64,000 bases of DNA from an uncultured Selenomonas sp. (lineage in GTDB: Bacteria; Bacillota; Negativicutes; Selenomonadales; Selenomonadaceae). This document shows positions 11,239-12,224 of this stretch, one piece after another. The notes under the pieces were generated by a model that was not told where the DNA came from, ran no database searches, and saw only the letters and a list, made by a program, of their open reading frames with translations. The first letter of the stretch is position 1. Each line of letters begins with the position of its first letter. The position numbers and the translations under genes were made by a program. The DNA lies in the NCBI GenBank assembly GCA_947167105.1, contig CAMVGU010000016.1, positions 1 through 64,000 on the forward strand, written 5' to 3'.

Positions 11239-11286
11239 CTACTATATCTTGGACGCCTATTGACGAGGCACTACTAGATATAGTAT
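11239..11286 (+). promoter_or_regulatory. Tandem NrdR-type boxes
   Basis: Two 16-bp sites with cores CTATATCTTG (11242-11251) and CTAGATATAG (11274-11283) match the NrdR core CTATATATAG at 8 and 9 of 10 positions. They are spaced 32 bp apart, about three helical turns, the usual arrangement of NrdR boxes. The second site abuts the -10 element, so bound NrdR would block transcription of the nrd genes when (d)ATP is ample. Confidence 0.7.
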
Positions 11287-11366: not shown

Positions 11367-11651
11367 ATGACAGTGAACGGTATTGATGTGACTGTGGACG
11401 GTCTTTCTGATGTCTCCGAGCAGGAAATCCTGGGCTATATTGATTATGTCAATGAGCAGACCAGGGATCGTGTCGGCAAGTTGCATATCTCGGCGGCAGA
11501 TGATGGCTGCGTAACCCTCGATTATGCACTGATGCCCCAGAAGTTCGAGCGCATCCGCCGCATCACCGGTTATCTTGTGGGCACCATCGACCGCTGGAAC
11601 GATGCGAAGCAAGCAGAGGAGCATGACCGCGTGAAGCACGGCCTGCACTGA
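11367..11651 (+). CDS. Small NrdD C-terminal-like (glycyl-radical-type) protein
   Basis: The 94-residue protein ends with RRITGYLVGTIDRWNDAKQA followed by EEHDRVKH. This corresponds to the extreme C-terminus of class III ribonucleotide reductase NrdD, where RVxGY carries the glycyl radical. The N-terminal 60 residues lack catalytic-barrel motifs and lack the CxxC zinc pairs of full NrdD. I prefer the ATG at 11367 (AAGGTG 6 nt upstream) over the GTG at 11358. It precedes nrdG behind NrdR-type boxes. Full-length nrdD is not in the window. It may be a spare glycyl-radical domain, as GrcA is for pyruvate formate-lyase, or a regulatory partner of NrdG; this is inference. Confidence 0.65.
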   Translation: MTVNGIDVTVDGLSDVSEQEILGYIDYVNEQTRDRVGKLHISAADDGCVTLDYALMPQKFERIRRITGYLVGTIDRWNDAKQAEEHDRVKHGLH

Positions 11652-11693: not shown

Positions 11694-12224
11694 ATGAAAG
11701 ATATGGAAATCCGCCTCGCCGGCACAGTGGACGATTCCATTGTTGACGGTGACGGCCTGCGCTTTGCCATCTTCGTCCAGGGCTGCCCCCGCAGCTGCCC
11801 AGGCTGCCAAAATCCTGAAACACAGGATTTTAAGGGAGGGTACCTGACCACCACCACCGCCCTGCTGGCAGAGATTGAGAAAAATCCCCTGCTGACCGGT
11901 GTCACCTTCAGCGGAGGGGAACCCTTTGCCCAGCCCTCCCCTCTGGCTGAATTGGCCAGGGCCTGCCATGAGCGCGGTCTCGATGTCTGGAGCTATACCG
12001 GCTATACGCTGGAATACCTGCAGCATAGGCACGATCCTGATACCGATACATTGCTTGCAGAGCTGGACGTACTGGTTGACGGCGACTACCGGGAGGACAT
12101 GCGGGACTTAACGCTCCTATTTCGCGGCTCCAGCAACCAACGGGTAATAGATATGCAGAAAACTCGCAAACAACGGCGTATCGTGCTGCTCTATAACGAC
12201 GGTGCAGACGCCCAAAGCGCATAA
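11694..12224 (+). CDS. nrdG: Anaerobic ribonucleotide reductase activating protein
   Basis: NrdG is the radical SAM activase that abstracts hydrogen from the NrdD glycine. The 176 residues show the cluster-binding CxxxCxxC as CPRSCPGC (about 31-38, after FVQG) and the SAM-binding GGE in TFSGGEPFAQP (about 72-82). YTGYTLE and LDVLVDGDY are typical of the NrdG C-terminal half. RBS GAGGTGA lies 6 nt before the ATG. It is co-transcribed with the small NrdD-like protein 42 nt upstream and ends at an intrinsic terminator. Confidence 0.93.
   Translation: MKDMEIRLAGTVDDSIVDGDGLRFAIFVQGCPRSCPGCQNPETQDFKGGYLTTTTALLAEIEKNPLLTGVTFSGGEPFAQPSPLAELARACHERGLDVWSYTGYTLEYLQHRHDPDTDTLLAELDVLVDGDYREDMRDLTLLFRGSSNQRVIDMQKTRKQRRIVLLYNDGADAQSA

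Follow-up and report, generated by a model that had tools for sequence, protein, structure and literature searches.

A 94-residue protein encoded at 11367..11651 (+ strand, stop codon included) in the window analyzed here, a 64,000-nucleotide stretch of contig CAMVGU010000016.1 from the draft genome of an uncultured Selenomonas sp. (GCA_947167105.1), very probably serves as the glycyl-radical component of a class III ribonucleotide reductase made of two pieces, in which the activase NrdG would generate a radical on Gly68 and the tail carrying this residue would enter the barrel of a separately encoded NrdD. Judging from the sequence comparisons, the most likely role of the small protein in this genome is that of an obligate radical subunit and not that of a spare part. 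The split reductase is favored because the only NrdD of the genome stops before the radical loop and has no tail of its own to rescue. The initial annotation had offered both readings; the split enzyme has gained support from the finding that the sole NrdD is tail-less, and the rescue of an oxygen-cleaved NrdD is set aside for this genome.

The assignment of the small protein begins with its C-terminal segment, FERIRRITGYLVGTIDRWNDAKQAEEHDRVKHGLH (residues 60-94, 11544..11648, + strand). PF13597 (NrdD) aligns these residues with profile positions 532-562 of 562 at 33 bits (cut-off 26), NCBIfam PRK14704 matches the protein with an E-value of 1e-13, and a family profile places the segment against residues 701-739 of P. 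copri NrdD 8p23. The proposal that the protein ends in the NrdD region bearing the radical glycine is thus well supported by sequence comparison. The tail that follows the zinc site of P. copri NrdD bears Gly711, and this residue sits next to the radical cysteine (PMC11226230). The predicted radical glycine of the small protein, Gly68 (codon 11568..11570, + strand), falls in the corresponding segment by the family-profile match and shows no variation among the stand-alone proteins compared (59 close and 35 diverse). As had also been noted initially, the small protein contains neither a catalytic barrel nor a zinc CxxC pair. The NrdD equivalog TIGR02487 scores it, taken alone, at 34 bits, far below the cut-off of 326; by these matches the protein is a part of NrdD and not an NrdD by itself. 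It shares with GrcA-type proteins its small size, its stand-alone state and a radical glycine motif (RRITGYL), and it is not matched by PF01228, the Gly_radical family of the pyruvate formate-lyase (PFL) type, whose sole match in the genome lies elsewhere.

The remaining residues, 1-59 (11367..11543, + strand), form an N-terminal beta-alpha-beta-beta domain in an AlphaFold2 model with a predicted local distance difference test score (pLDDT) of about 80. A Pfam scan of this part returns no family, and a fold search against the PDB returns nothing significant, the top match being a tRNA-splicing endonuclease (E-value 0.076, probability 0.66). The domain likely has a docking or regulatory role.

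The small gene starts with ATG, and a gap of 42 bp separates it from nrdG (11694..12224, + strand) downstream, in agreement with the order first reported. This gene encodes a 176-residue radical S-adenosylmethionine activase that is matched by PF13353, PF04055 and TIGR02491 (136 bits, cut-off 126.1) and carries the CxxxCxxC motif as CPRSCPGC. Comparison with relatives confirms the 94-residue open reading frame (ORF) as real and conserved beyond chance, because 75 distinct homologues of the same layout were gathered, residues of the tail are invariant and relatives differ in the tail mostly by synonymous codon changes (12 synonymous and 2 non-synonymous relative to locus L048). Across 59 aligned homologues, E20, Y24 and E61-L70 (ERIRRITGYL, the glycine included) do not vary, and the N-terminal domain is variable.

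The inventory of the genome, a 66-contig draft of 3.15 Mb that is 99.7% complete, supplies the second piece. A profile search finds just two NrdD-type matches, covering profile positions 1-534 and 532-562, which together make up one complete enzyme. The first is the sole large NrdD, a 772-residue protein encoded on a different contig (C5, locus L001) from the small gene; whether the genome holds a full-length nrdD with its own glycyl-radical tail, a check proposed initially, is thereby answered in the negative. The large protein retains an ATP-cone (PF03477), the barrel (PF13597 positions 1-534) and the zinc region, and its finger-loop cysteine motif MGCRTRV aligns in register with that of P. 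copri NrdD 8p23. It ends cleanly after CPHCHRREVEQGSFTIKRRKA, just short of the radical loop (profile position 534), with the C-terminus CGYTGIIENECPHCHRREVEQGSFTIKRRKA. No tail is found downstream in any frame, and a hairpin-like sequence, identified by eye, lies 3' of the gene. The features of a class III reductase are therefore distributed over two chains: the barrel with its finger-loop cysteine, the ATP-cone and an NrdG activase are present, the glycyl radical domain is missing from the C-terminus of the large chain, and the radical glycine motif R..GYL is provided in trans by the RRITGYL of the small protein. A search with PF02867 gives no match to a class I or class II reductase, so the split class III enzyme should be the only reductase and hence the source of deoxynucleoside triphosphates (dNTPs) for the cell; a reductase of another class is rejected as the supplier on the same evidence.

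In the proposed mechanism, the large NrdD would supply the ATP-cone, the barrel, the finger-loop cysteine and the zinc site, and the 94-residue protein would supply the radical loop on its own small N-terminal domain. NrdG, encoded directly downstream, would put the radical on Gly68. The radical-bearing tail would then insert into the NrdD barrel beside the cysteine, and nucleotide reduction would start.

The same arrangement is widespread in the family. The split NrdD is common to all six genomes of the genus and occurs in almost all of 151 family genomes. Most of the 80 loci on named contigs belong to Selenomonas, Mitsuokella, Anaerovibrio, Schwartzia, Megamonas and their relatives, and in 70 of the 80 the small gene is followed by nrdG. 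Tail-less nrdD, the small gene and nrdG stand in this order as an operon in Anaerovibrio, Schwartzia and Megamonas. Every genome with a tail-less NrdD in the family sample (60/60) encodes the small protein, as do 17 of 17 genomes with a tail-less NrdD outside the family, where it is a stand-alone copy. Three family genomes whose sole NrdD is intact (G015, G034 and G055) have no glycine-bearing small protein. Since the family genomes are kin and not independent data points, the NrdD tree weighs more than these co-occurrence counts. On this tree of 74 NrdDs, built on an aligned region that excludes the tail, the tail state switches 15 times, and well supported branches force at least 8 of the switches, with loss and regain not being distinguishable. 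A working replacement would permit repeated loss of the tail in lineages that possess the stand-alone protein. Separately, the 1230-residue NrdD frame on contig C233 of genome G004 (L008/L009) is interrupted at its NCCQIDL motif by an intein-like insert.

Beyond the family, other Negativicutes encode two types of stand-alone sequence that match two NrdD subtypes: the type RITGYLVGT..RWN pairs with a long NrdD (about 780-830 residues), and the type RITGYLST..FN pairs with a short one (about 670 residues). Tail-less short NrdDs also exist, some of which end at the motif directly upstream of nrdG (L207, ...SSIRRVRKIIE; L199, ...QVRRVKKA). Fusions of the small protein to NrdG in a single ORF are found in two genomes of one genus (L312:2352-3236 and L315:1425-2534). 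In some other Bacillota, a tail-only ORF of about 60-70 residues stands between a tail-less NrdD and nrdG. Such mini-ORFs, which lack the N-terminal domain and occupy this position at L306-L308, L324, L325, L309 and L310, represent a further split type.

Both genes of the split enzyme are preceded by a pair of NrdR-like boxes. Within the window, pairs were accepted with a summed match of at least 21 of 32 positions to the NrdR consensus and a spacing of 31 or 32 bp. The pair upstream of the small gene (11239-11254 and 11271-11286, span 11239..11286, 32 bp apart, without assigned strand) is the only one in the window to satisfy these values, and the tail-less nrdD is preceded by a pair at positions 1053 and 1084 of its locus. 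Among 71 related loci, 51 have a similar box pair upstream of the small gene or of the nrdD operon. The genome encodes NrdR, which may bind at these predicted boxes.

Several observations weigh against an obligate two-piece enzyme. The radical loop has low confidence in the AlphaFold2 model of the small protein alone, and the predicted structure of a read-through chain of NrdD and the small protein (L073) is poor (mean pLDDT 59, shallow alignment) and was not used. The genome is a draft in which an intact nrdD could have been overlooked, but six congeneric genomes with the same split make this unlikely. In many relatives (e.g. G152, G154, G157, G183 and G219), a stand-alone copy accompanies NrdDs that are all intact, from which it follows that the first role of the small protein may have been other than that of an obligate subunit. 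These copies, found in many other Negativicutes, also speak for a spare part that takes the place of the C-terminus when oxygen has cleaved an intact NrdD, the role that GrcA (YfiD) has for PFL. Single-gene copies on phage contigs point the same way, and the fit of the tail sequence to the NrdD subtype present can be counted for a spare part as well as for a split subunit. For this genome, where no intact NrdD was found, such a role is rejected: there is no tailed NrdD to be damaged, and tail-less NrdDs are accompanied by the small protein in all of the sampled genomes counted above. A spare part is accordingly judged very unlikely here.

Even less likely is a radical-free regulator or decoy that binds NrdG or NrdD and limits activity. 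The genome does encode, on contig C11 (L333:1501-1734), a 77-residue paralogue with the same N-terminal domain that ends after PFERVRRI without the glycine loop, and other genomes also have N-domain proteins lacking the tail. The paralogue is possibly a decoy, a regulator or a decayed copy. In the form adjacent to nrdG, however, the glycine and the entire loop are invariant, and the sole reductase of the cell would be left with no radical glycine if the small protein were missing. Similar glycine-less proteins occur in the three family genomes with an intact NrdD (L327-L329); the claim that those genomes bear a truncated version of this very gene, as a mirror image of the split, is withdrawn, as the paralogue is present in the Selenomonas genome too. 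That the split is an artefact, with a sequencing frameshift, recoding or trans-splicing yielding a normal full-length NrdD, is scarcely credible. Splitting of phage nrdD genes by introns or inteins is known (PMC3653736), and the insert in G004 offers a related case, but the two pieces here are encoded on separate contigs, the small gene is equipped with a start of its own, an additional N-terminal domain and upstream boxes, and the split state is conserved across genera. An assembly break or frameshift is rejected on the clean gene ends and this conservation.

Many stand-alone copies are located on viral contigs of IMG/VR (L224-L303), mostly with no nrdD inside 4 kb and with neighbors that include tail fibre, integrase, minor head and tail genes. 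Some phage contigs carry the stand-alone copy together with a tail-less NrdD and NrdG, which extends the split to phages. A PHROGs search returns no dedicated family for stand-alone NrdD-type radical proteins. By analogy with GrcA, the small-protein family could act as a spare part in the phages and in the relatives with an intact NrdD. A more tentative proposal, which we consider rather less than even in its chances, is that the phage copies keep or capture the host reductase and that a spare part repeatedly became an obligate subunit. In Eggerthella phage EL753P1 (L304:2505-3078), the NrdD is tail-less and an unannotated radical segment lies nearby downstream across a frame change, which reads FERIRRI stop / LTTGYLTG; frameshifting, an intron remnant and a sequence error are candidate explanations.

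The large piece shares the ATP-cone, barrel, MGCRTR finger loop and zinc region with the intact class III enzyme of P. copri, and the small piece shares its radical-loop sequence, with the difference that the loop here resides on the product of a separate gene with an additional N-terminal domain. GrcA (E. coli YfiD, phage T4 Y06I) is likewise a small stand-alone glycyl-radical protein found in phages; it is, however, of the PFL type (PF01228), whereas the protein described here is of the NrdD type. GrcA also restores a damaged intact enzyme, whereas the partner NrdD in this genome is made without the tail; a tailed partner is present in many relatives. The split NrdJa/NrdJb reductase of Pseudomonas aeruginosa, of class II, is also one enzyme made as two polypeptides, but it uses adenosylcobalamin (PMC4520616), and the Selenomonas genome has no PF02867 barrel match. 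In the split phage nrdD genes (PMC3653736), nrdD is likewise in pieces, which there result from intron, intein or fragmentation events and not from a conserved separate radical subunit.

In a literature search that covered few subscription journals, no paper turned up that describes an NrdD-type glycyl radical protein standing alone, although one may have been published earlier. Members of the small-protein family occur widely among related bacteria and in the phages of these, and the family appears to be undescribed. In class III reductases as described, the radical glycine and the active site share one chain, an arrangement from which most of this bacterial family appears to depart, and DNA synthesis in most of its members would depend on a separate radical protein of this kind. 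According to a 2021 paper (PMC8683613), glycyl-radical spare parts had been validated only for PFL; the paper raises the question of whether other glycyl radical enzymes possess them, for which the small-protein family is a direct candidate. A natural two-piece system would allow radical installation and insertion to be observed separately. The split would also put right how truncated NrdDs are annotated, and it draws attention to a short phage gene for dNTP supply that mostly goes unannotated. As a minor observation among the collected NrdDs, the protein encoded at L195:1102-3489 carries a glutaredoxin-like C-terminal extension (CPNC...).
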